Source: Candidatus Uhrbacteria bacterium (lineage in GTDB: Bacteria; Patescibacteriota; Patescibacteriia; 2-12-FULL-60-25). Taken from it: a stretch of 64,000 nucleotides of DNA. Positions within the stretch are counted from its first letter, which is position 1; the number at the start of each line of letters is the position of its first letter. The notes beneath the pieces were generated by a model that ran no database searches, was not told the origin of the DNA, and was given only the letters and a program-made list of their open reading frames with translations. The stretch lies in the NCBI GenBank assembly GCA_008363075.1, contig RHKK01000002.1:1-64000 (forward strand), in the 5' to 3' direction. The position numbers and the translations under genes are program-made. Shown here one piece after another: positions 1-29,703 of this stretch.

Positions 1-679
1 TTTCTACTTTAAGAATTCTTAATTCACTACGCTTATCACCTTCAAAATATAAAACTGTGTCAACCATGTGTTCTAAAATTTTTGGTCCAGCAATTTCACC
101 AGATTTTGTAATATGACCAATAATAAATGCAGGAATACTAAAACCTTTTGCTAAGCTTATAATCTTGTCGGCGCATTCGCTAATTTGAGAAATGGATCCA
201 CTAGTACTTGGTAAATCCGGTGAATAAAGTGTTTGAATTGAATCCACAACAATTAAATCAATATCTTTTGAATGAGATGCAATATAGTTTTGAATGGAGA
301 TTATGTTTGTCTCAGGGTAAAACAGTACATTAGTTTGCTTTTGTTTTAATCGATCAGATCTGTGTTTTATTTGGCTTGGAGATTCTTCGCCTGCAATGTA
401 TAGAATCTTTAAACCTTGATTTGAAAAACTTTCTGTAATCTGTAACGATAAAGTGCTTTTACCAACGCCAGGGCTTCCAGCAAACAAGATTACTTGACCA
501 GAAATTATTCTTCCACCAATTGTATTATCAAATTCCTTGATACCAGTCTTGAGCTCTATTTGTTTGTAGCTTACTTTTTCGTCTTTTTTATCTAAATCAA
601 TAAGTCTAACTGGCTGCTGAGAGCTACGAGCTTCGAGCCGTGAGCTTCGGGAAGCTTTGGACGATTTTGTTTTTGTCAT
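1..679 (-). CDS. radA: RadA/Sms-type DNA repair ATPase, 3' end beyond window, no zinc finger
   Basis: RecA-superfamily ATPase acting in recombination and branch migration. The frame translates to a RadA core: Walker A GSPGVGKST, then AGEESPSQIKHR, a Walker B-like strand DLIVVDSIQTLYS, the GHITKSGEIAGP segment and HMVDTVLYFEGD. The C-terminal KNRFG motif and Lon-like domain would lie beyond base 1. The first ATG in the frame is at 679, just downstream of an in-frame TGA near 724. The N-terminal four-cysteine zinc ribbon normal for RadA is absent, and about 18 N-terminal residues (rich in S, R, L, E, A) come from repeat DNA. The gene is about one third G+C by eye, unlike the rest of the window. 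It could be a horizontally acquired short form, a truncated gene, or one side of a chimeric join. Confidence 0.85.
   Translation of the reverse strand, partial: MTKTKSSKASRSSRLEARSSQQPVRLIDLDKKDEKVSYKQIELKTGIKEFDNTIGGRIISGQVILFAGSPGVGKSTLSLQITESFSNQGLKILYIAGEESPSQIKHRSDRLKQKQTNVLFYPETNIISIQNYIASHSKDIDLIVVDSIQTLYSPDLPSTSGSISQISECADKIISLAKGFSIPAFIIGHITKSGEIAGPKILEHMVDTVLYFEGDKRSELRILKVE
620..657. repeat. reiterated-word repeat inside the radA 5' end
   Basis: Words of the type gagcttcg / gagctacgag recur in degenerate form across about 38 bases, with partial self-complementarity (gaagctt, gagctc-like words). The stretch is translated as the unusual SRSSRLEARSS segment of RadA. It resembles the reiterated-word arrays listed elsewhere in this window and sits exactly where base composition changes. 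Confidence 0.6.
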
Positions 680-737
680 CCTGAGCGTAGCGAAGGATCT
701 CACTCGGAGGGAGATTCTTCACTCCGTTCAGAATGAC
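675..737. repeat. imperfect inverted repeat of the gtcatcctgag...gaatgac type
   Basis: The left end gtcatcctgagcgtagcg and the right end ccgttcagaatgac are imperfect inverted copies around a short core, so the element can fold into one long hairpin. Sequences that translate to VILSVAKDL / LRMT-type peptides are widely dispersed in unrelated bacterial genomes (general knowledge). Here the element supplies the radA start codon and lies at the boundary between AT-rich and GC-rich DNA. Confidence 0.8.
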
Positions 738-742
738 GGAGA

Positions 743-1507
743 TTATCTAATCTCAAACGTCACGCTTATATTTGATTGCACGTCGAGTTCTCCGGCTTGT
801 ATGTCCGGCACCGCGGTAGGCACGGGAGCCGCTTCAAGTCCGCGGAAAAAGACCGGCGGCGGTTCGGTGCCGCCCGTGCTCTCCGAGAACGTGACGATTT
901 TCACGATGCGCACGCCCATCGCGTCCGCGAGCTCCTGCGCCTTGCGCTTCGCGTCCTCGATCGCCTTGGTGCGCGCCCGTTGCCGCACGTCGGTCGGATC
1001 ATCGATCGTGAAGCGTACGCCGTTCACCTGGTTCGCGCCAAGCTCGCCGGCTCGCGACAGTACGGCGCCGACGTTCGACAAATTGCGCACCTTCACCTTC
1101 AGGTTCTGGCTGACGATATACCCCACCACGTTCTGCACGCCGTCGGCGTATTCGAATTTGGGGGAAATGGTGTAGTTCGACGTTTGCATGTCGGCGTCCG
1201 CGATGCCCATTTGCTTGAGCGCGGCGATAATCGAGTTGATTTTGCCCGCATTGGCTTGCTGTACCGACGCGACGTCCCGACCCTCGGAGTAGAGACCGAG
1301 GTCCACTTCGGCGAGTGTCGGCTCCGCGGAAACCTTGCCCTCGCCCTGGATGGTGAACGTGTCGCGCGGACGCGGTTCAAGCCCGACCCGGCCGTATTCG
1401 GCCAGCGCTTTGATGGACAAAATGGCGAGATAAAGGACGAGCACCGTCCCGACGGCGACGAGGATGCCGTTCAGCGTTTTGTCTTTGGAAGATGGAATCG
1501 GAGGCAT
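743..1507 (-). CDS. SIMPL-domain (DUF541) membrane-anchored protein
   Basis: 254 residues. One N-terminal membrane helix (about residues 12-36) is followed by a SIMPL/DUF541 domain. Family features visible are FTIQGEGKVSAEPTLAEVDL at the domain start, the long helix with AGKINSIIAALKQMGI, the LKVKVRNLSNVG strand and the RARTKAIEDAKRKAQELADA helix. Members are periplasmic or surface proteins of unclear biochemical role, sometimes linked to oxidative stress. The protein is predicted to face outward, tethered by its N-terminus. It is transcribed away from the dockerin gene. The family call is firm; the function is unknown. Confidence 0.85.
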   Translation of the reverse strand: MPPIPSSKDKTLNGILVAVGTVLVLYLAILSIKALAEYGRVGLEPRPRDTFTIQGEGKVSAEPTLAEVDLGLYSEGRDVASVQQANAGKINSIIAALKQMGIADADMQTSNYTISPKFEYADGVQNVVGYIVSQNLKVKVRNLSNVGAVLSRAGELGANQVNGVRFTIDDPTDVRQRARTKAIEDAKRKAQELADAMGVRIVKIVTFSESTGGTEPPPVFFRGLEAAPVPTAVPDIQAGELDVQSNISVTFEIR

Positions 1508-1520
1508 AAGGGGAAGTTTA

Positions 1521-1605
1521 TCGTTGACAGTTTACAGTGAACAGATCGATATGAACAGCCTTTTTCAAACATCAATCTGTCAACGGTTATCTGTCATCTG
1601 TTAAC
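1521..1605. repeat. reiterated-word palindromic array
   Basis: The left arm repeats tgacag / acagtgaacag words. The right arm, from about 1576, repeats their complements (ctgtcaa, atctgtcatctgtt). A short spacer separates the arms. The right end overlaps the stop codon of the 57-residue gene. A near-identical word set recurs at 50141-50207 and inside truB (63556-63585). Confidence 0.7.
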
Positions 1606-1774
1606 TCTCTTTCTCGATGCGATCCTTGAGTTTGCCGATGTACGTCCGGTCGACCTCGTCGAGCAATTGCGAAACGGTCATGCGATGTTCGTGCGCGATC
1701 TTGCGTAAGGACCGTTCGAACTCGGCATAGGCGTCGACGATTTGCTTTTTCGTCTCGGGAGTGACGTCGGGCAT
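1601..1774 (-). CDS. small hypothetical protein (57 aa)
   Basis: An open frame starts with ATG at 1774 and ends with TAA at 1601-1603. The product begins MPDVTPETKKQIVDAYAEFE and continues as amphipathic helices (SLRKIAHEHRMTVSQLLDEV), ending with a basic/acidic helix. The balanced charged composition and helix periodicity look like a real small cytoplasmic protein; the other frames here are arginine-rich shadows. I do not recognise a family. The helix-turn-helix-like spacing of IAHEHRMTVSQLLDEVDR suggests a possible nucleic-acid-binding fold, but that is weak. It is divergent from the dockerin gene with only 38 bases between starts. Confidence 0.6.
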   Translation of the reverse strand: MPDVTPETKKQIVDAYAEFERSLRKIAHEHRMTVSQLLDEVDRTYIGKLKDRIEKES

Positions 1775-1812
1775 ACGCACGAATCATACCACGAACGTGC
1801 TAAGATGCGTGC

Positions 1813-2577
1813 ATGCGCCGCTCGCGCCTAGCGTTGTTTGTCGCCGTATCGGCATCGGCGGTTCTTGTGATGCGCGACGCGTTCGCCCAGAGTCAATCCA
1901 GCGCGAATTTCCAGAATACGAATCCCTCAATCGAAGTGCTCGTCGGAGAAATGAAATCATCCAACTATCGGATCAGCGCGTCGGTCGGCGTATTCACGGC
2001 GGACACCCAAAGCGCAACGTATCAACTCGAAGCCGGCGCGCAAGGCAACCCGGGAAGTGCGCCGTCGACGGGGCCGTCTCCCGCACCGGTGACGGGAGGC
2101 GGTGCCGGTGGCGGGGGAGCCGTGTTTTACGATGTGTTCGCGCCCTCGACGACGACCGGAGAGGCGTTACTCCCGGCGCCTACGTTGCTTGCGCGTCGCT
2201 GGACCTACCGGAATGCCGTCATGCTTTCCGGATTGCGGGGTAGCGAGGAGGCAGAGATCCTCGTCAACGGCTCCGCGCAGGGCGTCACGCACCCGGCGCC
2301 GTTTTCCTGGGAGCGACTTTTGCCGCTTGCGCTCGGCAACAATGAAGTGTACGTACAAGCGCGCAAGGACGGGCTCGTATCGCCCGTCGTGTACGGCGTC
2401 ATCCGACGCCGGCTCATCGGCGACGTCAACGACAGCCGACGGGTGGATGATGTAGACTTATCGTTGTTCACGCGCCATTGGAATACGTTTGACGAACAAT
2501 CCGATTTCAACGAAGACGGTCGGATCGACGATATCGACCTTTCGCTCCTGGCGAGCCATTGGAATCGCAGCTTCTAA
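1813..2577 (+). CDS. secreted protein with C-terminal dockerin-like repeat pair
   Basis: 254 residues with an N-terminal signal peptide ending near AFA (about residue 25). A conserved-looking beta region follows (SSANFQNTNPS, SSNYRISASVGVF, ATYQLEAGAQ), then a Gly/Ser/Pro linker and an Ig-like region. From residue 203 to the end there are two calcium-loop motifs of the dockerin type I pattern: D204, N206, S208, D212 with D215-L, and D231, N233, D235, R237, D239 with D242-L. Each is followed by a helix ending in HWN. Dockerins bind cohesin domains. The next gene, six bases downstream, encodes a cohesin-like protein, so the two are probably partners at the cell surface. The function of the remaining domains is unknown. 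Confidence 0.75.
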   Translation: MRRSRLALFVAVSASAVLVMRDAFAQSQSSANFQNTNPSIEVLVGEMKSSNYRISASVGVFTADTQSATYQLEAGAQGNPGSAPSTGPSPAPVTGGGAGGGGAVFYDVFAPSTTTGEALLPAPTLLARRWTYRNAVMLSGLRGSEEAEILVNGSAQGVTHPAPFSWERLLPLALGNNEVYVQARKDGLVSPVVYGVIRRRLIGDVNDSRRVDDVDLSLFTRHWNTFDEQSDFNEDGRIDDIDLSLLASHWNRSF

Positions 2578-2583
2578 CCGTTT

Positions 2584-3801
2584 ATGTTATCACGCCTTTG
2601 TTCCGCCCTCGTTCTGACGCTCGTGCTTACGTGTGCGGGATTCCCCGTCATCGCACAGGCCGCCACGGCGGGCGTATCGGGACCGTCCCAAGTGCGAGTC
2701 GGGACCACCTTTCGCGTGAACTTGGTCATCTCGGGCGCGAAAGACGTGGATACGGTCCGGTTCGTCGGCACGTTCCCCGCCGACTTGCTCGAGCTGCAGG
2801 GCATGGCCAACGGCTCCGCATTGCCGAATCGTTCACCCGGATCGGGCTCGGGCAACGGTTCGTTCAATCTCGGGGCGTTTTCCCTCGGCGCGGCGGTCAA
2901 CGGCGGCGCGACCGTCGGCACGTTGACGTTTCGGGCAAAGAAAACGGGTGAGGCCGTGATTTCGCTCGTATCCGGCACGACGATCTTGTCTGCCGGCGAA
3001 AGCCAGCTCACGGGGCAAGGTGGGTTGCGTATCGCGATCACGGAAGCGCCGCCGCCGTCCGAAGCTCCGGCCATACCCGTTCCGGAAACCAAGATCACGC
3101 TGGCGAGCCCGAGTCACCCGAATGAAAACGCGTGGTACGCGAACCGGACCGTCGCGGTCACATGGGACGTGACAGGACGCCGTCCGCAGGCGGTGTACAT
3201 CGGATTTGATCAAGCGCCGGAAGGGCCTGCCGAAGAACGGCGAGCGGAACGCGGAGAGATTGCGCATACCGTCCCGCATGACGGGGTCTGGTACGCGCAT
3301 CTCGTCGTGCGTTTTTCCGCGACCGAGATCGAGCGGCGCGATTTCCGTTTCCAAGTCGATACGACGCCTCCCCGCGCGTTCGCCGTAGTCGCCGACCACA
3401 CCGACGTCGTCCCCACCACGCCGAATGCGCTGCGTTTTGCCGCACTGGACGACGCGTCCGGCGTCCGCGCCTACGACGTGTGGATCAACGACGTTCACGT
3501 GACATCGACCGCCGAGAACGCCTTCGCGCTCATTCGTCTTCCGGCGGGGGAATATGCGGCCCGCGTCCGGGCAACGGACGCGGCGGGCAACAGCGCCGAG
3601 GCGACGACGTCATTCCGCATCCTTCCGGTCCTGCCTGCCGAGGCGACCGTCGCTATTGTGGACGGTTTCCGTGATGCGGCCGTTCGTTGGATCCTGACGA
3701 CCATCATCGCGATCATGCTATTCTTTTCCGGATATTGGTACGGGAGGACGTATTTCCAAAAACGCCGCAAGAGCTCCGCCCAAAAAAGGCAGAAATTTTA
3801 G
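2584..3801 (+). CDS. membrane-anchored cohesin-like surface protein
   Basis: 405 residues with a signal peptide (cleavage near AQA). Residues about 30-155 match the cohesin pattern: a VSGPSQVRVGTTFRVNLVIS start, KDVDTVRFVGTFPADLLEL, and a later ATVGTLTFRAKKTGEAVISL strand pair. One or two Ig-like beta domains follow (FQVDTTPPRAFAVV, LRFAALDDASGVRAYDVWI, YAARVRATDAAGNSAEA). One C-terminal membrane helix (WILTTIIAIMLFFSGYWYG) is followed by a strongly basic tail, so the protein is anchored with its N-terminus outside. It is directly downstream of the dockerin gene and probably co-transcribed. A generic extracellular Ig protein is the alternative; the cohesin assignment rests on motif shape and on the neighbour. 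Confidence 0.7.
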   Translation: MLSRLCSALVLTLVLTCAGFPVIAQAATAGVSGPSQVRVGTTFRVNLVISGAKDVDTVRFVGTFPADLLELQGMANGSALPNRSPGSGSGNGSFNLGAFSLGAAVNGGATVGTLTFRAKKTGEAVISLVSGTTILSAGESQLTGQGGLRIAITEAPPPSEAPAIPVPETKITLASPSHPNENAWYANRTVAVTWDVTGRRPQAVYIGFDQAPEGPAEERRAERGEIAHTVPHDGVWYAHLVVRFSATEIERRDFRFQVDTTPPRAFAVVADHTDVVPTTPNALRFAALDDASGVRAYDVWINDVHVTSTAENAFALIRLPAGEYAARVRATDAAGNSAEATTSFRILPVLPAEATVAIVDGFRDAAVRWILTTIIAIMLFFSGYWYGRTYFQKRRKSSAQKRQKF

Positions 3802-3830
3802 GGAAATAAAGTTAGCTACAGGACAGAGTG

Positions 3831-3879
3831 AGGACGGCGCGGGAAAAATGATCTATAATGTTTTTACGGGGCAACCCGT
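3831..3879 (+). promoter_or_regulatory. promoter and leader hairpin for the S74 repeat protein
   Basis: A consensus -10 TATAAT lies at 3854-3859. A weak -35 (aggacg, 3831-3836) sits 17 bases upstream. A small hairpin, acggg-gcaa-cccgt (3866-3879), follows in the leader. No clear ribosome binding site precedes the ATG at 3900. Confidence 0.5.
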
Positions 3880-3899
3880 GAATTTGCCGTACTTTTGTA

Positions 3900-6800
3900 A
3901 TGAAAAATACTCAAAAGAACGGTCTTTATTTCATAGGAAAACGCGTTTTTCCGTTTTTGGTATTCCTCGGTTTATGGTTCGGCCTCTTTACGGCGCAAGA
4001 GGCGAACGCCACCATTCCGATGACATTCGGTTTTCAGGGGCGTCTGAAAGACAGTTCCGGCACCGCGCTTTCTTCGTCGTTCTCGTTTACGTTTCGTCTG
4101 TACGATGCATCCTCCGGCGGCACGGCTCTCTGGACCGAAACGCATCCGTCGGTGACGACGGATCAGGGATTTTTCTCGGTTCGGCTTGGATCCGTCACGC
4201 CGTTTCCGGATACCTTGGATTTTAACGGGGCGCTGTACCTTGCTACGCAAGTGGGCGCCGATGCGGAGATGTCGCCGCGATTGCCGCTCAATACCGTGCC
4301 GTATGCCTATACCGCAGGCGGCGTCAACGCGCTGGATGCGGCTCCCGTGACCGCGACCGGCGGACGCATGTATTACGACGCGACGGACGGAACATTAAAT
4401 TATTACGACCACACGGCCGCCGCCTGGCGGTCACTCGGAACGGCCACGGGCACGTTGCAACAGGTGACCGATGGCGGCAACGTGACCACGAACGCGATCC
4501 AATTCGCCGGAGGCACATCGACCGGCGGATTCATTGTGAGCGGCTCGGGTGTCACGACCACCAATCTCTTCGTGTCCGGTACGGCGAGCTCGTCGCAGCT
4601 GTATGTGGCGGGTCAACTCGTCTGCTTGGCAAGCGGAGTGAACTGTCCTTCTCTTGGGGGGAGTTCCGACACCCTCGCCACGGTCACGGCTCGCGGTTCC
4701 TTCGCGACATCGACGCTTCAACTCTACGGAGGCTTCCTTGCGTCGAGCTCCACCGTCACCTCAACACTTACCGTCCTCGGATCGACGAGTCTTCAGAACT
4801 TCACATTCGTCGATGCGACCGGGACGAACGTCACCACGACCAATCTCTTCGCCTCGGGCGTCGTCTCCACCACCGAGCTGTATGTCGCGGGTTCTCTCGT
4901 CTGTCTCGCGACCGGCACGAATTGTCCTTCGAGTACGGCCGCAAATCTCCAGACGGTGACCAATGCGGGCAATACGACCACGAACGCCATCGTGTTTGCC
5001 GGAGGAACGAGTACGGCCTCCTTCGTCTTCGAGGATGCCCTCGCCGTCCTTGGCGACACGTCCCTCCAGGGTCTCACCTTCACGGATGCCACCGGGACGA
5101 ACGTCACCACGACCAATCTCTTCGCGACCAACGGCTCCTTCACGACCCTCACGGCCGGCTCCTTCACCCTCACGGATCTTGTCTGGACGAACGCCACGGG
5201 AACCAACACGACGAGTACGAACCTGTTTGCGACGAACCTTCAGGCGACGAACGCTCTCTTTGTGAACGCCACGGCGACCTGGCTCGGCTTCACGACGGCC
5301 TCGGGCACGACGCTCGCCGCCAATGCCGCCACCATCGGTTCCCTCACGGCCGGGATGGGCTCCTTCACCGACCTCTCCGTCGCGCGCGTGACCTCGACCG
5401 AATGGCTCGGCTTCACGACGGCCTCGGGCACGACGCTCCACGCGCTCCAGCTCTTCGTGGGCGGACAGGCGGTCTGTCTCGCCAACGGGACGAACTGCCA
5501 GACCTTCGTCGAATCCGACACCCTCGCCACCGTCACGGCTCGCGGTTCCTTCGCGACATCGACGCTTCAACTCTACGGAGGCTTCCTTGCGTCGAGCTCC
5601 ACCGTCACCTCAACGTTCACGGTGCTTGGCAATGGCTTGATGCGAACTAATGCGCTCGTCGGCACATCCACATACGGCGGCGGCCTGCATTCGCTATTTG
5701 CCGTCAACGGCGACGATCTGTTCGTCCAGGGCAATATCGGCAGCGCCTCCAGCGTGTACACGAACGGAGAACTCGTGGTCGGTGCATCGTCTGCGCGGTA
5801 CGGCGACGGTTATCTGAGGCAAACAAGCGGGAATTACACCTTTACGATCGCGGGCGGCTTTCTATTGCCCGCCGTCGACAGGGGCGTGTCGCTCGGATCG
5901 CTGACTCAGAGGTTTGATGGCGTTTTCGGAAATACGACGTCCACGAATTCAACCAGCACGAAGATATTCGCGACAAATTTCGTCGCGACCAACGCCACGA
6001 CGACGAACCTGAACGTCGTCGGCTTGTATCGGCAAAACGGAACGCCCGGCATCAATATCGATTGTATGACAGATGAATTCATCGGCAATCAGACCGTTTC
6101 GGGCGGCATTACGACGGCGGGAGCCTGCGAGGCCGACACGGCGATCCTGTCCGATGCCCGGCTAAAAGAAAACGTGCAAAGCGTGGGATCGGTTCTTGCT
6201 AATCTCAATTCCGTCAATATTGTTTCATTCGACTGGAACGCGGAGGCGCATAGCAATTTCGATTTTTCTACCGGTACGCAATACGGCGTGATCGCCGACG
6301 ATTTGGAATTGCTGTTTCCCGAATTGGTGATCGTAGGTCAGGACGGGTATAAACGGGTAAATTATCGCGCCTTGAGTTTGTACTCGCTGCAGGGAGTGAT
6401 CGACGTGTTTGGCGAGCTGAACGCGCTGCATACCATCGTCACCACGACCGCGCTCGAGTGGGTATATGCAACGGGGACGAACGTCACGACGACCAACGCC
6501 TTCATCAGCCGGGGCACGATAACGGATCTGACAAGCACCAATGTCACGACAACCAATCTGGACGTGACCGGACTGCTTTCGGCGGCGGATCTTCTGGTCG
6601 GCGGACAAAGCGTGTGTCTGACCGACGGCTCGAATTGCGGCATCGGCGTGGTGAAGACGGCTTCAAGTACGTCGTCGGTGAACCTGACGAGTACGGAGGT
6701 AAGTTTGTTGACGGTCACCACGACGCCTCATGCAACGACTGACGCGGTGTGGACTCTTTCGACGGTGCGGACCACGAACTCCGATCTACTCGGCTTGTCC

Positions 6801-9005
6801 TCCGCCTCATACAGGATCCGGCGCGGTACGAGCTGCGCCGCAGGTACGACGGTCGGAGTCGCGACGACGTTATCGTTGCCGCTGATCGACGATACCGAAA
6901 TCGCCACGCTTAGCTTCGTCGACAACCCCGCCACGACCACGGCCGTCGCGTATCACCTCTGCGGCCAGGAAACCGCCGGATCGATCACGGTCGGTCAACG
7001 CTCCATGATTACGCAAACCGTGTTTCCGGGCGCGGACTTGGGCGAGGTGTATTATACGCATGACGATACACTGGCACCCGGGGAAGTCGTGTCTCTGGAT
7101 CCGACGCTCAACGACGGGGTGAGACGCTCCACCTTCGCGTATGATCCGTTTGTCATCGGTATCATCTCGACGTTTCCCGGGAGAGTGCTCGCTCTTCCGC
7201 CGTCCAACTCCACCACCGTCCCGGTCATCGTGGCGCTGACCGGCCGCGCGCCGGTTCGTGCGTCCAACGAAAACGGACAAATCAAACAAGGTGATTCGTT
7301 GGCCGCGGCCGCCACCCCGGGATACGTGATGAAGGCTTCCAGCATGGCCCGCAGTATCGGCCGGGCATTGGAGGATTTACCGGTTCCGGAAGGAGAGACC
7401 ACGTCGACCGTGAAGGGGACGATCGAGATGTTCATCGAGACGAGCGTGTTCCTCCCGGTCTCCGAGGACGGACGCTTGATCAACCTCCCAACGGTGGGAC
7501 CCGCGACGTTCGGATTCGAAAACCGCTTGCCGGTGCTGAGTTCATCCACCCTCGTGCAGTTTTCCGCCACGACGAATACCGCATTGATCGTGAACCTGCA
7601 AAACGCGTCCACCGGCACCAATGCGTCGTCGGAATATACGGTGACCGGCAGTCTCGGGACGACGTCGACGCATCATTTCAAGATGGGAGTTCGCGGTTCG
7701 GGGTATAGCGATTCGAATTTTTCCATCACGGGACCCAATGACGCGTATCTCTATACGCACGGAGCGAATCTCGCGATCGGAACGGCGTCGGGATCGTCCA
7801 TCGTCTTCCATACGGCCGGAACACAGGCGAGCGACGAACGTATGCGCATTACGGAGACCGGTTGGGTGGGGATCGGAACACCCGCACCGTCCAGCACGCT
7901 GCATGTGATCGGTGACGCGATCTTCAGCGGTTCCGTGACCGCGACGCGGCTGTCCGTATCCGGCATCGTCAGCTCCACGGGAGCCGTCTTCCATGGTGGT
8001 CTGTCCGATTCGAGCGCGGGCGACGACGCGCTGTGCATCGATCCGTCCACCGGGGAAATTCGTCGCGCGGCAGGAGCGACGGACTGTACGTTGTCGAGCC
8101 GTCGGTTCAAGCATGATATCGAGAGCCTTACGGTCGGCCTCGACGCGTTGATGGACTTGCGTCCGGTGAGCTTCAAGATGGACGGATCCGACCAAGAACG
8201 GCTCGGTCTCGTGGCGGAAGAAGTCGCGGAAATCGAGCCGCGCCTCGTGTTCTTTGAAGAGGACGGCGTGACGCCGCGGGGCGTGCGGTATTCGGAAATC
8301 GCGTCTCTTTTGATCAAATCCATTCAAGAACAACAAGCGATGATCCGCGCGCTGCAGGAGGGCCGCGCGGATGGACTGACGTTTCATTCCACCGCCACCT
8401 TCCTCGGCGGAATCGTGGTGAAAGAGCACTTGTATGCGGGGCAGGACATCGCGGGACATGCGAGGCTGATTTCCGGCGCGACACGCGTACGCGTGACGTT
8501 CGACAAGACGTTCCTGCATCAGCCGATCGTGACCGTGACGCCTCTCGACTTTGTGGACAGCATGTATCGCGTCACGGACGTGACGATCGAGGGATTCACG
8601 ATCCAGGTGAACGCCGCGCAATCCAACGACAAGGTGTTTGCGTGGCATGCGATCGGCAGCGATGGCGGCAAGGTCTTCTCGAGCGACGGAACCACGGAAG
8701 ACATTGAACCGGTCGAGCCGGACCCTGATGAGATGCCGGGCGGCGAGCCTGCTCCCGCGATATCCGAACCCGAACCTGAACCGGCGCCGGAATCCGAGTC
8801 CATATCGGAATCTGAACCGGAATCCGTGAGTGAGCCTGAACCGGAGGCCGTCGCGGAACCGGAGCCGGTTTCAGAACCGCTCGTAGAACCGGAACCCGTG
8901 AGTGAGCCTGAACTTGAATCCGATACGGCACCCGAACCGGAACCTTCGCCGGAACCCGAGCAGGCACCGGCAACCCCTCCGCCCGATACGGGCGAATCAT
9001 CATGA
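3900..9005 (+). CDS. 1701-aa repetitive surface/fibre protein with two peptidase S74 domains
   Basis: The signal peptide ends near ANA (residue ~38), followed by a beta domain (FGFQGRLKDSSGTALSSSFS, LPLNTVPYAYTAGGV) typical of collar regions in bacterial fibre proteins. Long low-complexity beta repeats built on ATGTNVTTTNLFA and LYVAGQLVCL follow. Two chaperone-like S74 domains are visible. The first starts at S751 (SDARLKENV) and sits in mid-protein. The second starts near S1399 (SSRRFKHDI) and is followed by a helix EQQAMIRALQEG. A third beta region and a Pro-Glu tail made of EPEPEP-like units follow. S74 domains trimerise fibres and autocleave by a Ser-Lys dyad; both copies keep Ser and Lys, but the second has Ser where Asp is normal. 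The protein is probably a trimeric fibre exported by Sec. The next gene is a LytR_C protein. Confidence 0.85.
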   Translation: MKNTQKNGLYFIGKRVFPFLVFLGLWFGLFTAQEANATIPMTFGFQGRLKDSSGTALSSSFSFTFRLYDASSGGTALWTETHPSVTTDQGFFSVRLGSVTPFPDTLDFNGALYLATQVGADAEMSPRLPLNTVPYAYTAGGVNALDAAPVTATGGRMYYDATDGTLNYYDHTAAAWRSLGTATGTLQQVTDGGNVTTNAIQFAGGTSTGGFIVSGSGVTTTNLFVSGTASSSQLYVAGQLVCLASGVNCPSLGGSSDTLATVTARGSFATSTLQLYGGFLASSSTVTSTLTVLGSTSLQNFTFVDATGTNVTTTNLFASGVVSTTELYVAGSLVCLATGTNCPSSTAANLQTVTNAGNTTTNAIVFAGGTSTASFVFEDALAVLGDTSLQGLTFTDATGTNVTTTNLFATNGSFTTLTAGSFTLTDLVWTNATGTNTTSTNLFATNLQATNALFVNATATWLGFTTASGTTLAANAATIGSLTAGMGSFTDLSVARVTSTEWLGFTTASGTTLHALQLFVGGQAVCLANGTNCQTFVESDTLATVTARGSFATSTLQLYGGFLASSSTVTSTFTVLGNGLMRTNALVGTSTYGGGLHSLFAVNGDDLFVQGNIGSASSVYTNGELVVGASSARYGDGYLRQTSGNYTFTIAGGFLLPAVDRGVSLGSLTQRFDGVFGNTTSTNSTSTKIFATNFVATNATTTNLNVVGLYRQNGTPGINIDCMTDEFIGNQTVSGGITTAGACEADTAILSDARLKENVQSVGSVLANLNSVNIVSFDWNAEAHSNFDFSTGTQYGVIADDLELLFPELVIVGQDGYKRVNYRALSLYSLQGVIDVFGELNALHTIVTTTALEWVYATGTNVTTTNAFISRGTITDLTSTNVTTTNLDVTGLLSAADLLVGGQSVCLTDGSNCGIGVVKTASSTSSVNLTSTEVSLLTVTTTPHATTDAVWTLSTVRTTNSDLLGLSSASYRIRRGTSCAAGTTVGVATTLSLPLIDDTEIATLSFVDNPATTTAVAYHLCGQETAGSITVGQRSMITQTVFPGADLGEVYYTHDDTLAPGEVVSLDPTLNDGVRRSTFAYDPFVIGIISTFPGRVLALPPSNSTTVPVIVALTGRAPVRASNENGQIKQGDSLAAAATPGYVMKASSMARSIGRALEDLPVPEGETTSTVKGTIEMFIETSVFLPVSEDGRLINLPTVGPATFGFENRLPVLSSSTLVQFSATTNTALIVNLQNASTGTNASSEYTVTGSLGTTSTHHFKMGVRGSGYSDSNFSITGPNDAYLYTHGANLAIGTASGSSIVFHTAGTQASDERMRITETGWVGIGTPAPSSTLHVIGDAIFSGSVTATRLSVSGIVSSTGAVFHGGLSDSSAGDDALCIDPSTGEIRRAAGATDCTLSSRRFKHDIESLTVGLDALMDLRPVSFKMDGSDQERLGLVAEEVAEIEPRLVFFEEDGVTPRGVRYSEIASLLIKSIQEQQAMIRALQEGRADGLTFHSTATFLGGIVVKEHLYAGQDIAGHARLISGATRVRVTFDKTFLHQPIVTVTPLDFVDSMYRVTDVTIEGFTIQVNAAQSNDKVFAWHAIGSDGGKVFSSDGTTEDIEPVEPDPDEMPGGEPAPAISEPEPEPAPESESISESEPESVSEPEPEAVAEPEPVSEPLVEPEPVSEPELESDTAPEPEPSPEPEQAPATPPPDTGESS
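4665..4765 (+). repeat. 101-bp direct repeat, copy 1, inside the S74 gene
   Basis: This 101-base segment starting tccgacaccctcgccac is repeated at 5514-5614 with a single visible mismatch (g versus c near base 17). It encodes the SDTLATVTARGSFATSTLQL repeat block. Identity at the DNA level, including third positions, points to recent duplication or gene conversion. Confidence 0.9.
5514..5614 (+). repeat. 101-bp direct repeat, copy 2, inside the S74 gene
   Basis: Second copy of the segment at 4665-4765, 849 bases downstream and in the same reading frame. The flanking repeats (for example the tggctcggcttcacgacg word at about 5280 and 5403) are also nearly identical, so the whole 4.6-5.6 kb part is prone to copy-number change or assembly collapse. 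Confidence 0.9.
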
Positions 9006-17710: not shown

Positions 17711-19663
17711 ATGCTTGAGAACGCATCCGTGCAAACCGTCGTGCAAAAACAGTTCGCAAACGCGATTCGTTTTTTGGCGATGGTTTTTGCGTGTCTGGCG
17801 ATCGCGGCCGTGGCCGTGCCGTCGGTCGCATACGCGCAGGCGCCGGTGACGGAAGGGCTCGAGGCCGTGGGGGAGGCGGGCGGGATCGCGGGAGGGGAGA
17901 CAGACCTGCTCGTCATCATCGGACGCATCATCAATATCGCGCTCGGGTTCGTGGGAATCGTCCTGCTCGTGATCCTGTTATATGCGGGATACGAATGGAT
18001 GACGTCCGGCGGCGATCCGGCCAAAGTGGATTCCGCTCGCACGCGCATCCGGAACGCCGTGATTGGCCTTGTGATTCTCACGATGTCGTTCGCGATTGTG
18101 AATTTCATTATGAACGCGCTCATCCAGGCCACCGGCGGCGCCGGGGGAGGCGCGGGCGGGACCGGTATCGGCACGCCGGGGAGCTTTGGTTTGCCGGGCG
18201 CGTCCGGGTCGCTGGGCGGCGGGATCATCGAGTCGCACGTACCGGGCCGTGACGCGACCGGCGTGCCGCGTAACACCGCGATCGTCATCACGTTCAAGGA
18301 ACCGATCAAGATCGGATCGTTCATACAGGATTATGACGACAACGGCACGCCGGACGACCTCTCCGACGACACGGTCACGGAAGGAATCAACGGCGCGGCG
18401 GTCAAGGTGTATCCGTCCGGTCAGCGCGATCGCGCGCTCACCACGGCGCAGGCGCGCGTCCGGTTTACGGAAGACCGCCGCACGTTCGTGATCCGGCCCG
18501 TCGAATACCTCGGCAGTCCGACCGAGAATATGACGTACACGGTCGAGCTCGTGGCGGGCGCGTCCGCCGGCGCGACGATCGCGTCCGTGTTGCTCGAGGA
18601 CGGCACGCCGGCCTTCAGCGGCGCGTTCTCGTCCGGCTATCAGTGGCAGTTCGAGGTTTCCACCATCGTGGATCTCACGCCGCCGCGCGTGACGTCCGTG
18701 ATTCCGACGGCGGGACGCGTGTTTGCTCCCAACATCGTCGTACAGATCAATTTCAACGAAGCGATCGATCCGACGTCTGCCGCGGGTGCCTGGTCGTCCG
18801 GAAGCGGATTCACCAACATCCGTGTCACGGCGACGCCCGATGAACCGCCCGGCGCCGCTTCCACGCGTCCGAACGGCGAATTCCGTATTTCCAACCAATA
18901 CCGAACGGTCGAATTCGTTACCGATCTTGCCTGCGGTACCAACTCGTGCGGCCGCACCGTGTATTGCCTGCCTTCCAATCACTCGATCGCGGTCGAAGCC
19001 CTCGCCGCTTCTCTGACCGACACGCCGCCCGTCGCCGCGCTCACCGCATCGGGTTACGACGGCATCGTGGACATGGCCGGCAACTCGCTCGACGGCAACG
19101 GCGACGGCGACGCGCAGGGATCGGACACGGACACCACCCCCGGCGACGACCGCTACGGATGGACGTTCGGCACCAATGATTCGCCCAATCTCGCCGCGCC
19201 CGTGATCCGTTCGACCAACCCGACGGCCGGCGATCTCGGCGCGTCGAGCAATCTCCCGCTTGATTTCGAACCGCAGGCCACCTTTGACACCATCCTGCAA
19301 AGCTCCACGGTCAACAGCGACAACGTGATCCTGCGCACCAACGAACCGGCCGAGTTTGCCGATACGTTCTGGTGGGCCGTCTCGCAAGAATTCCTCACCG
19401 CCGCGGGGATGCCGGCGGACGTCGGCGACGATCCGGAACACGGACGCCTCTCCATCCGTCATCGCTTGTACTTGCCGGCCACGTCCACCCGCGCGACGCC
19501 GATCTATCAGCCGCTGCTGCGTTCCGGCATCCAGAACGTGTACCAGAATTGCTACAACCCCGCCGGTTCGGACGATTGCCGCGCCGACGGCGCGAATCCG
19601 AATTGCTGCGATGGCACCTCGCAGTCCGGCGCCTGCGCGGCGCCGCGACCTCTCGGCTCATGA
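17711..19663 (+). CDS. pilin-like (VirB2/TrbC-type) membrane hairpin fused to Ig-like domains
   Basis: 650 residues. Signal peptide with cleavage near AYA (residue 42). Two membrane helices (about 66-92 and 115-138) are joined by a short loop YAGYEWMTSGGDPAKVDSAR, the pattern of VirB2/TrbC pilins and their relatives. Next come a Gly-rich linker and at least two SbsA/Big_5-like Ig domains (GVPRNTAIVITFKEPI; TPPRVTSVIPTAGRVFAP with VVQINFNEAIDP). The C-terminus is Cys-rich (CYNPAGSDDC, NPNCCDGTSQSGAC). It is probably anchored in the membrane with a large outer part. The stop overlaps the start of the next, giant gene (ATGA), so translation is likely coupled. Type IV secretion function is not shown; only the hairpin resembles it. 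Confidence 0.75.
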   Translation: MLENASVQTVVQKQFANAIRFLAMVFACLAIAAVAVPSVAYAQAPVTEGLEAVGEAGGIAGGETDLLVIIGRIINIALGFVGIVLLVILLYAGYEWMTSGGDPAKVDSARTRIRNAVIGLVILTMSFAIVNFIMNALIQATGGAGGGAGGTGIGTPGSFGLPGASGSLGGGIIESHVPGRDATGVPRNTAIVITFKEPIKIGSFIQDYDDNGTPDDLSDDTVTEGINGAAVKVYPSGQRDRALTTAQARVRFTEDRRTFVIRPVEYLGSPTENMTYTVELVAGASAGATIASVLLEDGTPAFSGAFSSGYQWQFEVSTIVDLTPPRVTSVIPTAGRVFAPNIVVQINFNEAIDPTSAAGAWSSGSGFTNIRVTATPDEPPGAASTRPNGEFRISNQYRTVEFVTDLACGTNSCGRTVYCLPSNHSIAVEALAASLTDTPPVAALTASGYDGIVDMAGNSLDGNGDGDAQGSDTDTTPGDDRYGWTFGTNDSPNLAAPVIRSTNPTAGDLGASSNLPLDFEPQATFDTILQSSTVNSDNVILRTNEPAEFADTFWWAVSQEFLTAAGMPADVGDDPEHGRLSIRHRLYLPATSTRATPIYQPLLRSGIQNVYQNCYNPAGSDDCRADGANPNCCDGTSQSGACAAPRPLGS

Positions 19664-22600
19664 CGTTCTTCCGACGCTCGGCCCTTGCGGCCCTCATCGC
19701 CCTCTCGCTTGCCGCGGGAGCGCTCTCGTTTGACGCGCGTCCGGTTCTCGCGCAGGACGCGGGCCTCGAGGCCGTCGGGTCGGAAATCGGGCTGTCCGCC
19801 GAGGATCCGCGCCTCATCGCCGCGCGGATCATCAACATCGCGCTCGGATTCCTCGGCATCATCACGCTCGTCATCATTCTCTATGCCGGATTCCAGTGGA
19901 TGACCTCCGGCGGTGATGCGGACAAGGTTGCGCAGGCGCAGCGCCGGCTTCGCAACGCCGTGATCGGCCTTATCATCATCCTTTCATCCTACGCGTTGAC
20001 TTCTTTCATTGTTCGATCGCTCACCGAGGCGACGGGATTCGGCGAAGGCACGGGCGTCGGCGCGCCGTCCGGTCCGGGCGGACCGTTGCCCGGCGGGGGA
20101 GGCGCGGCCGCGTTCCAGCTCCGGTCCATCACGCCCTCCGGCTCGGTGCCGATCCGCAACGTCGAGGTGCGCTTCCTGTTCACCCGCAGTGTGGATCCGG
20201 CGTCGGCGGCCGGCGCGATCCAGGTCCTGCGCGCGTCCGATTCGACGCCGGTCGAGGGCGCGGTCTCGACCGACGGCTCGACCGTCACCTTCGTCCCGAG
20301 CGCGCCGTGTCCCGCGCCCAACGAGGATCGCCGCTGTTTTGACGCGGACACGGAATTTATCGCGCGCGTCTCGACGGCCCTGCGTTCCACGGGAGGCACG
20401 GCGCTGGTTTGCGGCGGATTCGCGCCCGCGTGCGAAGGACGCTTCACGACCGGAAATCTCGTCGATACGGCCGATCCGACCGCGACCATCGAATACCCGC
20501 TCGACGGCCAAGGGGTGCCGGTGGACGATCTGATCCTCGTACGCACGCGCGCCACCGACGACGCGGGCCTGTCGCATGTCGAAACGTTCGTGGATGGCTC
20601 CTCGATCGGTACCGGTACGGGACCGGATTCCTCCTCGCCGTTCGTTGCGACCGTGGAGTGGGACACGACCGGACTGTCCACGGGCGGACGGAGCCTCATG
20701 TCGCGGGCCTTCGACCTCGATTCCAACACGGCGGACAGCGCCTCGATCGGCGTCGTCGTACGACCGCGTCACTGTTTCAACGGCGTGCAGGATGAAGATG
20801 AAACCGCGGTGGATTGTGGCGGCGCATCCTGCGGAGCCTGTTCCGGCGGCTCATGTACGAGCGGCTCCATGTGCGCGAGCGGCGTGTGCGTCGGCGGCGT
20901 GTGCGTCGAGCAGCCGGTGATCGTTGCCGTGTCGCCGGATGACGGCCGCGTCGGCACGCTCGTCTCGATCGCCGGCAGCAATTTCGGTTCCACGCCCGGC
21001 ACCGTCACGTTTGCCGACGGCCGTGCGGCCTCGGCTCCGGCTGCCTGCTCCGCCGCCGGCGTGCCGACGTGGACGCCGACGTTGGTCGTCGTGTCGGTGC
21101 CGGAAGGCGCGATCGACGGTCCGATCTTGCTCGAAAACGCCTCAGGATTGCGCGACGCGACCAATGACGAGCGCGGCCCCGTGCTCGACGATTTCGACGT
21201 CAACGACGTCGCGCGCCCGGGATTGTGCGCGGTACGCCCGTCTTCGGGTGTCGCCGGCGACCGCATCGAGCTCGTCGGTGTCGGTCTCGGCGCCTCTTCC
21301 GGCCGCGTGCAATTCAACGACCGCGACGTTTCGTCTTTCCTTTCATGGAACGACGAGTTGGTCGCCATGAACGTCCCGGTGTTCTCGCCGGCGACATACG
21401 CCGTGCGCGCGATCGCGGGCGGCGTCGAATCCAACCGGGTCGCCTTCCGTCTCGACGAACGCGTCGTGACCGCCGCGCCCGTGATCGACTCGATCGACCC
21501 GGCGGCGGGTCCGATCGGCGAATACATCACCCTGCAAGGGCGCAACTTTGGCAGTCGCACGGGCCGCGTCCTGTTCCGCCGCGGCGATGGTGAGGGCGTG
21601 GCGGATACGGACTTTCCGGAGCAATGTTCTCTCGCGTTCTGGACCGGCACGGCCGTGACCGTCAAGGTGCCCCGCACATACCGCGCGGGACTCGGCGATT
21701 CCGCCGTCACCGCAGGTGACTGGCAGGTCGTTCTCGAGCGGCAGGATACGGTGGAAAGCAACGCGTTCGGCTTTACGGTCAATGCCGACGCCCCGCGTCC
21801 GGGTGTCTGCGCGATCCGCCCCGGCGCAGGGCCGGTCGGCACGAGCGTCGAGATCATCGGCGAGCGGTTCGGCTCGGTCGCGTCCGGACAGGCGAGTTTT
21901 GCCGGCCCGGGCGATACGCGCGCGCCCATGAGCGTCGCCGCGTCCGACTGGACGCCGACGCGGATCGCGGGAAGCGTGCCGACCGGTGCGATCACCGGTA
22001 ACGTTCGCGTCCGGCAAGGTACGATCGACTCAAACGGCGTCCCCTTCGCGGTCCGCAACTGCAACGAGGATGCGTCGATTTGCAGTGCGGGCGAGATCTG
22101 CTGCCGCAGCGGCGCCTGTTCCGTCGGCAGCGTGTGCGAAGCCGCCTCGCCCGAAGCCGAATTCGCGTGGCAACTTTCCACCGGCATCCTTCCGGTGAAT
22201 CCGCGCGTCGTCGAAGAATGCTCGCCGGACCGACCGGCCTCGCCGTCGCCGTGGAGCGGCCGCACCGGCGGCGACCGGGCCTGTGTCAACACCGATTTGT
22301 ATATCCGATTTACGACGCCGATCAACCCCGCCTCGGTCGTACTTTCCGGTCCGGGAGCCACCTTCCTCGTGCGCGAATGTATCGGTTCCGATCCGTCTAA
22401 CCCGTGCGCGGAAGCGTCCGATCCGGTACCGCCCGCGGCCGGGACGGGACTGCGTGTCGGTGCGGAAGGGGATCCGGATACCGGCAACGGCTACATCCGT
22501 TTCCGGCCCGCCGCGCTTTGGGACGGTAATTCGACCTATCAGGTGATTTTGACGACCGGCATCCGCTCGAACACCAACGTGCCGATGCTTGAGAACGCGT

Positions 22601-25600
22601 CCCGTTGCGGCGCGGGGAACGCGTACTGCTTCACGTTCGGCACGCGCGATGCGACCGATACCTGTCGCATCGGTTCGATCAACGTCGTGCCGGAGTCGGC
22701 GACGCTCGCGGACATCGGCGCGACCCGCGACGAGCTTGCGGTGCCGCGCGCCGAGGGCGACGTGTGCTTGAACCTGCGCTCGGACGCGTTTGACTGGCGC
22801 TGGAGCGCAAGCGATGCACGCGTCGAGATCTCCAACGAGACGGAAACCCGGTCGGACGGTTCGGTACGCGGCTTGGAGGAGCAGACGGCCACCGCCCGTG
22901 CCGAAACCGGCGCCGATGCGACGCGCGTGACGGCCTCGGTGACGCAGGACGGCGAAACCGTTTCCGGCATCGGTCGCGTGTTCGTCCGCCTGCAACCGCC
23001 GCGCGTGGTCGCGTTCGGCCCGAATTGCGATGAAGCCTGCTTGAACGCGGCGGCGTGGGCGAGATTCAATACGGCGATCGAAGCCTCGACCGTGACCGGG
23101 AACGTGCTATTGCGACGTTGCGTCAACGAGAACTGCCTGTCGTACGACATGACGCTCGACATGTCGCGCGCCGTGATCCGCGTCACGCGCGCGCCGGACA
23201 CGACGTCGGAAGCGTTGACGTATCTCATCGTCGAGCCGGTCGGCGCGGGAGGAACCACGCTGCTCGAGACCGGCCGTTTCTACCGCATCACGCTGCGCGG
23301 CGGCGATCTGACGGGCATCCGTTCGACGAACGGTCTGCCGCTTGCCGGATTGAACGATCCCGAAGGATTCTCGTGGACGTTCCGCGTCCGAGAGGGGGAT
23401 GATGCGCGATGCGCGACCGCGCGCGTCTTGGTGATTCCCGGCGAAAAATTCGAAACCGCCGTCGGCGCGCGCCAGACGTTTGCCGCCACGCCGATTTCCG
23501 GTCCCAACGCTTGCGACGCGACCGGTTCGCCGCTCATCAGCGACCGTACGTTCGCCTGGACCATCGACCAGCCCGCGCCGGTTTCCCGTTACATCAATGG
23601 TGGCACGGGAACCATGGTGCGGCCCGGTCTTGTGGACACGACGCCGACTCTGCCCGCGGGATGCAGCGGTCGCTGTTTGAACCGCGGTTCGGACGGCGTC
23701 GCCGGTCGGACGGCAAGCTGCGGCAACGGCGTCGTGGAAACGACGAATGCCCGCTATTGCGCGGGCGGTCGCACGCCGTTCGGTGACGCGTGTACGCTCT
23801 TACCGCCGGGTTCGCGCGGAGGGGAGGAATGCGACGAGGCGAGTACCCTGTGCGGCGCCGATTGCCGATGGCGCCCGATGACCGGCGGTACGTGCGGAAA
23901 CGGCCGATTGGATCGCGGCGAACAATGCGACGAAGGACCGGGAGGCGGCCGCGGATGCAGCGCCGAGTGCCAGCTGCTCGGCTCGCGTCTCGGCGGATCG
24001 ACCTGCGGCAACAACGACGTAGCCGCAGGGGAGGCCTGCGACGACGGTAATACGACGAGCGGCGACGGGTGCAGTGCGGACTGCTTGCACGAAGGATCAA
24101 TCCGCGTGCGCGCGCTATGCGGCAACGGGGTACGCGAGCCGGGCGAGTCCTGCGAACGCCCGGTGCCCGGCGCCCCGTTCCCGGCCGGATGCAACACGAC
24201 GACGTGTTTGAACGAAGGGACGACGCCGCCCGAATGCGGAAACGGTCGCCCCGATCCCGGTGAAGATTGCGATGACGGAAACCTCGTCAGCGGCGACGGT
24301 TGTTCCTCGCGTTGTCTCGCCGAAGGTTCGTCCGCGGGATACTCCGTGCCGTCTTTCTGCGGCGACGGCGTGCGCGGCCGCGGCGAGCTGTGCGAGGCGC
24401 CGGCCACCGGCGGCGACGGGCGTCCCGATCCAGTCCAGCTTGCGGAAATCCTCGGCGAGGGCGAACCGGACGCCGACGGCCGCATGTCTTCGCAAATCGT
24501 TGCGGACTACGATGCCCAGCGCGGCAACGCGATATACGGATTGCAATGCGGGTACAGCGAAGAGAGTTCGTGCCCCGTGGGAACGGGATTGGACGCGCGC
24601 GGTTGTTGCGCTCCGCGCCCGACGCTCGTCTCGCAATACCCGACGCCGGGGGAAACGGGCGTCTGTCGCAATGTGATGGTCTCGGCCGTGTTCGGTACGC
24701 AGATGAACGAGGGATCCGTTTCTGCAAACTTCGTCTTCGCGCACGAGGTGACGGGAGCGACCTGCCCCGCCGGCACCGAGCGGGTCGCGAGCATCGAAGA
24801 CTATGATCCGACGCCGGGCATGCGCGGTTGGTTGAATCGTACGTGGCACAGGCTTTTGTCCTGGTTCCGCCCGCCGTCGGCGGACGCCGCTTGGTGCGCG
24901 GGGAGCGCCCGCGGTCGCCTCGAGTTCCTGCCGGAAGGCGACGGTACGCGCGTGAACTTCGTCCTGGAACGCGCGCTCGCGACCTCCACGAGATACCAAG
25001 TCCTCTTCCGTGGCGACACGAACCTCGCCGACAACGGGGATCCGAGCAATCGCGTGGGCGTTCGCACCGCGCGCGGCGTGGTCGCGGACGGAAATTTCCT
25101 CTGGGATTTCACGACCGGCGCGCGCTTGTGCGCGGTCACGACGATTTACGTACGCGACACGAATACGGACAGCCCCAACCTCTTTACGACCGCGGGCGAA
25201 TCGCACCTGTACACGGCGGAAGTCATCTCCCTGCAGGACGGTCGCCGCATCGCGCTGTCTCCGGTCGCCGAATATACCTGGGCGTGGGAGCCTTGGGTCG
25301 CGTCCAACCGAGAGGTGCTTGACGCCGAGGTCGGAACCGGGACGGATACGGCGAGTCGTTCCAATGTGAGCGTCGTCTCGCCGCCGCGCAACGGCGCCTC
25401 GTTCATCGAAGCCGGCATCCGCATCGTTCGAGACGACGTGAACGTACCGAGCACCACCGGCCGCATCGTAAAAGGCGCGCAGAACGCGACAGTCCTGCTC
25501 TGCGAGAACCCGTGGCCGGACCGCGCGCTCGCTCCGTTCAGCGAAGTCTCGGGACATCCGTCGCTTGAATTGCTTGGTACGTCGCCGCTCGCGGCCGCGA

Positions 25601-28600: not shown

Positions 28601-29703
28601 GCGTCAGATGGAGGGAAGATTCTCTCGGGATAGCGGATGAAGGCGTGAACGGCGGGTATTGGCCGTACACGAGCGGAAACTTCTCCGTGGCCACGTTCAT
28701 CACGAGCGGTTTGCGCAGCGATCAGGCAAAATTGTACCTCACGCCGAGAATCGGGGAGGGGGAAGTGTTGGTGATGGTGCAGACAAATGCCGGACAAACC
28801 ATTTTCCCCTCACTGATCATGCCGAGAACCGGAGCATTCGTGCAGACGACCGGATGGAACGGTCCCTCGACGGGCCCCACTCGGTCCATGCAGGCAAACA
28901 AATTCACGTATGCCTCGTGCGAGTTGGATGCGAAAGACGGCGTACGTCCGGGGGTGGCCGGCTATTGTGTCGTGGACGGTGACAACGATCAATCGAGGCC
29001 ATGTACTTCGGACGCACAGTGCGGATCCGGATTGCGTTGTCGCACGGGATACTGGGGATGCACCAGACAGGTAATGAATCCTCAAGGGAGGCAGGATTTG
29101 AACCTCTATCCTCATGCGGAATTCGTGTGTCGGAAAACCGTTGACGGGGTCGTAACTCCGAGCTGTCATCGCGCGCCGCCCCCCTATGTCTTCCGTTACA
29201 AAATCGCGCCGGGAATTCCGACATGGTTTGCGGGCGGGAATACCGGGCACATCAGCTTCTTCGTCGTGGATACCAATACCGAAGACCGTCCGCCGTCACA
29301 CGAGTATCTCAAGTCGCGGGCAGCGAACGTGCAGGTCACGATCGTGACGTTTGAACGCGTGTATCGCGTGACGCCTCCCGATGTGACCCCGACATGCGTG
29401 CCCGGGCCAAGCCCCGTCGCGGCTTCCCAGCGGCCGGCAACGTGGGAACCCGCCGCGACCACCGCGAGCAGGAGCCCGGCGTTCGATGTGGAAACCGGCG
29501 TCGGTAAATACTGGCTCGTGTTCCAACACAATGTCGCGACCGGAAACCTCGTGTTCGGAAATCAATACCTTTGCCGTGGTTCGACCATTCCCAACGAGGG
29601 ACCCTCGGCGAGTCCAAGCGATCCGTTAACACCCGCGACGCCCACGTATCCGTTACCGTGGCCGTTGTATTGGAACGATGGAATCTATGCCTATCCCCGT
29701 TGA
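19660..29703 (+). CDS. giant 3347-aa Cys-rich surface protein with pilin-like N-terminal hairpin
   Basis: Signal peptide (about 1-31) and two helices (56-78, 100-119) with loop [20 protein letters not shown] make a second copy of the upstream gene's hairpin. Then come Big_5/Ig domains (~150-365), a Cys-rich knot (~370-418) and four IPT/TIG-like domains (~420-800; for example [20 protein letters not shown]). More beta domains follow. Two blocks of DUF4215-like repeats of the form CGNGxxxxGExCDxG lie at ~1350-1640 and ~2410-2780, about 13 copies. A carboxypeptidase-regulatory-like fold ([20 protein letters not shown]) lies near residue 2903. Dozens of cysteines imply disulfide formation outside the cell. 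It is probably a long surface adhesin. Start ATG 19660 overlaps the previous stop; an upstream in-frame ATG is dismissed. Confidence 0.85.

Follow-up and report, generated by a model that had tools for sequence, protein, structure and literature searches.

The two neighbouring genes near the beginning of contig C23 in a Candidatus Uhrbacteria genome (1.1 Mb in 25 contigs, 99.89% complete) raise the question whether a dockerin and a cohesin encoded side by side form a docking unit of their own and, if so, what such a unit would serve for. Patescibacteria are generally believed to spend most of their lives in attachment to other cells, and the means by which they hold surface proteins have been little described. 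The window, by which we denote the whole stretch of 64,000 nucleotides that was analysed, begins with this contig. From the letters of the sequence, the initial annotation had described a secreted protein ending in two dockerin calcium loops, followed by a cohesin-like domain with a C-terminal membrane helix, and had regarded the two genes as a minimal cohesin-dockerin docking unit outside the classical cellulosome bacteria, which might serve to keep surface factors on the cell.

Gene layout and domain architecture

The dockerin gene and the cohesin gene (Table 1) share a reading frame and are separated by only 6 bases (TAA ccg ttt ATG), and because of this short distance they are probably co-transcribed. 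By hydropathy, both proteins begin with a hydrophobic segment, but only the cohesin protein has a C-terminal membrane helix, none being present in the dockerin protein.

Table 1. Features of the dockerin-cohesin locus, with positions in the window and the basis of each assignment.
Feature	Position	Strand	Basis
Secreted dockerin-terminated protein gene, 254 aa	1813..2577	+	ORF; Pfam Dockerin_1; hydropathy
N-terminal segment, aa 26-78, SSANF...SSNY... repeats	1888..2046	+	weak NCBIfam match; own profile 'nrep'
Small beta-sandwich domain, aa 120-198, probably Ig/Fn3-like	2170..2406	+	family conservation; pLDDT about 86-96; Foldseek
Dockerin module at the very C-terminus, aa 198-254, with two repeats of calcium loop and helix	2404..2574	+	Pfam; loop parsing; models; Foldseek
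Membrane-anchored cohesin protein gene, 405 aa	2584..3801	+	ORF; Pfam Cohesin
Cohesin domain, aa 28-152	2665..3039	+	Pfam; fold Z 18.0 to 2vo8; domain map
First Ig-like domain, aa 170-265 (Ig-like from sequence alone)	3091..3378	+	bounds from conservation; own profile ig1
Second Ig-like domain, aa 262-350	3367..3633	+	own profile ig2; weak Pfam Big_13, E 2.1e-4, below cut-off
C-terminal membrane helix, aa 365-383	3676..3732	+	hydropathy
Short basic tail, presumably cytoplasmic	3733..3798	+	sequence
Next gene, conserved in the family: protein of 1701 aa, rich in Ser/Thr/Asn, with Peptidase_S74 (endosialidase chaperone) domains	3900..9005	+	Pfam S74, E 7.8e-25

The dockerin assignment is supported by a Pfam match to Dockerin_1 (PF00404) on residues 203-247 that lies well over the cut-off (E 4.1e-8, 33.7 bits vs 22.9), and both the two repeats in the sequence and the two helices in the model agree with a two-repeat dockerin. 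The first and last loop aspartates (D9, D20, D36 and D47) are invariant in 36 of the 36 aligned dockerins. Loop 2, DFNEDGRIDDID, fits the usual dockerin loop, and loop 1, DVNDSRRVDDVD, deviates from it at two positions, 5 (S) and 6 (R). Upstream of the dockerin, a glycine-rich linker connects the SSANF/SSNY segment with the small beta-sandwich. In the AlphaFold2 model of the whole protein (17 sequences) the beta-sandwich and the dockerin are confident, while residues 22-113 are predicted to be disordered in the monomer (pLDDT <50). The top Foldseek match of the beta-sandwich is an Fn3-like module (E 2.6e-4); a clear family could not be assigned to this middle domain, its top VIA-align Z of only 7.2 not being decisive. 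Aligned with 2y3n_B, a dockerin chain of known structure, the dockerin part of the model gives an rmsd of 1.3 over 54 columns and a TM of 0.82 (by target length); this Foldseek match has an E of 0.019 and stands at rank 21.

The cohesin protein consists of a hydrophobic N-terminus, the cohesin, two Ig-like domains, the membrane helix and the basic tail, in this order. Its Pfam match to Cohesin (PF00963) on residues 34-140 is marginal (E 3.8e-5, 24.4 bits vs a cut-off of 24.1). The predicted fold settles this weak score, since it matches cohesins: the top match, the beta-sandwich of 2vo8, is reached with a Z of 18.0 and an rmsd of 1.9 over 129 residues (VIA-align), and 49 of the 50 entries listed by VIA-align are cohesin chains, the exception being the CLIPPER domain 9ifr. 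This count includes 2o4e, 3kcp and 4fl4, which we take to be cohesins, their titles being silent on this point. Catalytic domains were found by Pfam in neither the dockerin nor the cohesin protein.

The S74 protein encoded directly after the pair is probably a surface fibre, and its homologues lie near the pair in five family loci (L025, L026, L028, L029 and L033); a dockerin was not detected in it with our own profiles. On the other side of the pair, a SIMPL/DUF541 protein is encoded on the opposite (-) strand (window 743-1507, Pfam E 5.2e-52). The first 640 positions of the window are AT-rich (G+C 0.338 vs 0.613 elsewhere), hold a partial open reading frame on the - strand, and are possibly a foreign or misassembled contig end. 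Further along, at 17711-29703, two big predicted surface proteins (listed with 650 and 3443 aa) have a similar stretch of two helices in common, which by eye resembles VirB2-type pilin segments.

Predicted interaction of the two modules

For the joint model, the stretch 2395-3063 was given to AlphaFold2 as one chain, with the single stop codon between the genes read through, and the alignment comprised 78 rows, six of which were read-through pairs and the rest single modules. The resulting model of 223 residues, about 26 of which are a disordered linker, reached a mean pLDDT of 91.1 and a pTM of 0.83, values that belong to a read-through single chain and to a program that may recall known complexes; only the linker region was poor. 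Since the cohesin alone would limit the pTM to an estimated value near 0.6, the observed pTM suggests that both domains are placed relative to each other, and hence that their predicted relative placement is confident.

The similarity of the two dockerin halves is higher within one protein (0.56) than across different proteins (0.38), with none of 5000 shuffles as high, in the 32 of 50 dockerins that could be parsed. In known dockerins such half-to-half likeness accompanies binding in two orientations (dual-mode; compare the title of 2vn5). Moreover, two dockerin types, DDxDLS and DFSI, go with two groups of adjacent cohesins, and this match of types is clear. Across 43 pairs the distances between dockerins correlate with those between the adjacent cohesins at 0.70, compared to 0.39 for the distances between the second Ig-like domains (ig2) of the same proteins. 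For the 26 pairs of the DFSI group, however, the partial correlation amounted to 0.16 given ig1 (139 of 2000 shuffles as high) and 0.11 given ig2 (344 of 2000), a small and non-significant excess, and within the DDxDLS group (17 pairs) it was 0.54, no better than the 0.56 obtained in the reverse test with ig2. Co-evolution was consequently not accepted as proof of binding, since the overall signal stems mostly from the match between the two types and weakens inside the DFSI group, and it lends the interaction weak support.

Conservation of the gene pair among relatives

In the family group, which comprises 41 genomes (the search at the rank of order covered 41 as well), the full-length dockerin protein was found at eight loci in seven genomes, one of which (G006) contains two dockerin-cohesin pairs. 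The cohesin gene lies directly downstream at all eight loci, one copy being cut by a contig end, and because of this recurrence the pair is not a mere product of chance. A second dockerin locus occurs in a family genome (L032, G013:C2:246000-257000), where two proteins carry dockerin-like segments and a cohesin was not detected in the gene run.

A similar arrangement was found in a sample of 380 genomes of the class, 67 of which matched the dockerin-protein profile and 142 the cohesin-protein profile. Counting the loci at which the match reaches the dockerin part, and leaving out profile matches that cover only the N-terminal or middle part, a cohesin lies within 3 kb at no fewer than 57 of 74 dockerin loci, in all 57 cases downstream and on the same strand; the remaining 17 are without a cohesin within 3 kb among the matches listed. 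In the phylum sample of 379 genomes, 111 have a cohesin, 149 a dockerin and 75 both (Fisher p 6e-13, a value that ignores kinship). Among the matches listed, 34 genomes hold both modules, which lie within 3 kb of each other, always on the same strand, in 20 genomes and not in the other 14. The presence of similar gene pairs in many related bacteria suggests that this mode of attaching surface proteins to the cell is conserved.

The genome itself contains one dockerin over the Pfam cut-off and one cohesin, the latter both by Pfam and by the family profile. Since only one of each module is present, the cohesin is the only candidate partner of the dockerin in this genome. The search for more dockerin proteins that the initial annotation had proposed yielded none beyond this one, even when a class-wide profile of 36 rows was run at E<=5; a candidate second dockerin on contig C21 (E 0.37) was found neither by this profile nor by the profiles run on that region and was discarded. 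The description of the unit as minimal thus holds for this genome, whereas the wider operon of the relatives has up to three cohesin proteins.

This wider layout was mapped at 55 relative loci and in the first 20 kb of the window, which were chosen for their dockerin or cohesin match, so that the map informs on layout and not on frequency. Outside the family of the window, a common order is a WxLIP-like protein with a C-terminal helix, then the dockerin protein, then one to three cohesin proteins with Ig-like domains and a transmembrane helix; the WxLIP-like gene lies directly upstream of 17 of the 50 mapped dockerin genes. Through this WxLIP-like protein the layout recalls the WxL-type surface systems (WxLIP_PGBD, PF06030). 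Seven of its 17 aligned members match PF06030 at E<=0.01, the best at 9.7e-8, and the only homologue in the window's genome (E 3.7e-70) is found on another contig, C24, and does not adjoin the pair. There, a neighbouring gene encodes the N-terminal repeat that is also present in the dockerin protein of the window. Tentatively, the non-enzymatic cohesin-dockerin operon, often made up of a WxLIP-like protein, a dockerin protein and one to three cohesin-Ig-TM proteins, may be specific to Patescibacteria and may represent a conserved means by which these host-dependent ultra-small bacteria anchor surface fibres or adhesins, with matched dockerin and cohesin types that differ between lineages; we regard this as a possibility rather than an expectation.

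Proposed function and alternative explanations

Both proteins were thus recognised correctly from the letters, as confirmed for the dockerin by its two repeats and its Pfam score, and for the membrane-anchored cohesin by profile, fold and hydropathy. The structure prediction suggested as a check returned a cohesin fold and a confident joint model, so that neither of the refuting outcomes named in advance, another fold or a missing predicted interaction, was obtained. The reading of the two genes as a docking unit outside the cellulosome bacteria is supported in silico by sequence, fold tests, joint model and conserved gene order. On these grounds we infer that the pair quite probably acts as a one-to-one, calcium-dependent anchor that keeps a secreted surface protein on the membrane. 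The product of the upstream gene would be secreted via its N-terminal signal, and its C-terminal dockerin would fold around calcium and plug into the cohesin of the neighbouring protein, which in turn would be raised off the membrane by the two Ig-like domains and fixed by the C-terminal transmembrane helix. The payload, i.e. the Ig-like domain and the disordered PamT-like N-terminus, would thereby be kept at the cell surface without a covalent link, and the dockerin protein might serve as an adaptor for a fibre, for example the S74 protein encoded next.

A special case of this anchor would be a dockerin protein that is a subunit, or a tip or base adaptor, of a CPR-type pilus or fibre with the cohesin protein as its membrane base, which we consider rather unlikely. 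Residues 7-77 of the dockerin protein resemble the NCBIfam model CPR_pilus_PamT (NF058579; E 8e-4), and a second PamT-like gene of the genome (E 1.5e-10) is found beside the WxLIP-like gene on contig C24, where positions 357-5569 of the - strand (L239, G000:C24:1-10000) encode the PamT-like protein, the WxLIP-like protein and a 1095-aa Fn3/CarboxypepD_reg protein; in addition, the S74 fibre-like gene follows the pair in relatives. However, the two matches reach only 18.9 and 40.9 bits, respectively, far below the cut-off of 240 for PamT, this N-terminus is absent from most class-wide dockerin proteins, and the name PamT was not found in the open-access literature searched (PMC).

It appears improbable that the pair is used in trans, with a released dockerin protein linking to the cohesin of a neighbouring or kin cell in aggregation or host contact. 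Such a role would be consistent with the lack of a membrane anchor in the dockerin protein itself, and SEML1_0315, a dockerin-domain protein linked to the present one by domain name, is reported as essential in a cultured, epibiotic Saccharibacterium in the accessible part of PMC10633639. The tight co-orientation and spacing of the genes and the two matched types fit assembly in cis, yet allow a use in trans as well.

That the modules are relics, which kept their folds and lost their mutual binding, is very unlikely: the imperfect loop 1 and the marginal Pfam score of the cohesin would fit such decay, but the pair is kept at every family locus, the loop aspartates are invariant and the joint model is confident. 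Finally, it is scarcely credible that the pair belongs to a cellulosome-like scaffold of enzymes, of the kind suggested for certain Microgenomates. In favour of it, both modules are present, glycosidases with a dockerin occur together with a two-cohesin protein in a CPR lineage of the phylum sample, and such genes are reported for Shapirobacterales (PMC9123182, accessible part). Against it, this genome holds a single dockerin and a single one-cohesin protein, neither with a catalytic domain by Pfam, in place of a scaffoldin with several cohesins and several dockerin-bearing enzymes, which brings that reading close to refuted here.

Comparison with known systems

Both modules and their presence in the phylum were known already. 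Peer et al., as cited in PMC9012536, are said to have described, in 2009, non-cellulosomal cohesin-dockerin pairs in Archaeoglobus fulgidus and Clostridium perfringens. The pair studied here shares with these the two module folds and the low copy number, the archaeal cases likewise being without a scaffoldin. In line with this likeness, C. perfringens cohesins (2vo8 and 2jh2) are the top fold matches, and A. fulgidus 2xdh is also among the entries listed by VIA-align. In contrast to those pairs, the present one is a dedicated unit of two genes, one of them for a membrane-anchored cohesin-Ig-Ig protein; this unit is kept across a class of Patescibacteria and carries no enzyme domain.

Non-cellulosomal cohesins and dockerins of archaea and bacteria are also described in the accessible part of PMC9012536, where cohesin/dockerin surface proteins of ANME archaea were suggested to fix functional proteins to the outer layer of the cell and possibly to bring about contact with partners. 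As far as that part of the source goes, the ANME proteins are non-cellulolytic, as is the pair, but they include multi-cohesin scaffoldin-like proteins with S-layer or ABC-transporter payloads, whereas here a single cohesin is combined with a C-terminal helix. Similarly, the combination of a cohesin and Ig-like domains in one membrane protein recalls the TMEM132 family; according to the accessible text of PMC6030884, however, these are animal proteins with three Ig domains, and dockerin homologues are not detectable in vertebrates.

Closest in taxonomy are the Microgenomates, which belong to the same phylum and have the same modules. The accessible part of PMC9123182 mentions genes for cohesins and dockerins in Shapirobacterales, and for Roizmanbacteria it mentions cellulosomes. 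Unlike the present pair, these cases are put forward there as evidence of cellulosomes, together with glycosidases, and a two-gene anchor unit is not described in that part of the report. Likewise, neither the two-gene anchor unit nor the wider operon was found in the open-access literature searched (PMC), a body of work outside which most subscription papers lie. Within that literature a dedicated, non-enzymatic, membrane-anchored pair kept across the class therefore appears to be undescribed. These results suggest that cohesin and dockerin genes in Patescibacteria need not signify cellulose breakdown. Moreover, a compact anchor pair of class-wide occurrence represents a directly testable module, as its two small soluble domains can be expressed and mixed, and its two genes can be deleted wherever genetic tools are available.

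Gene clusters of a different kind were also seen in the phylum. One Patescibacteria locus (L241, G109:C27:4000-18500) encodes five dockerin-terminal proteins, together with a protein of 939 aa that carries two cohesins besides a dockerin; one of the dockerin-terminal proteins has an apiosidase-like domain (E 1.5e-52) with CBM6/CBM35, and another is weakly GH5/apiosidase-like. A locus of another genus (L242, G134:C36:1-10500) again encodes five dockerin-terminal proteins, some of them near-identical at the N-terminus. The two loci represent a cellulosome-like cluster in a Patescibacteria family, which agrees with the accessible part of the Microgenomates report (PMC9123182).
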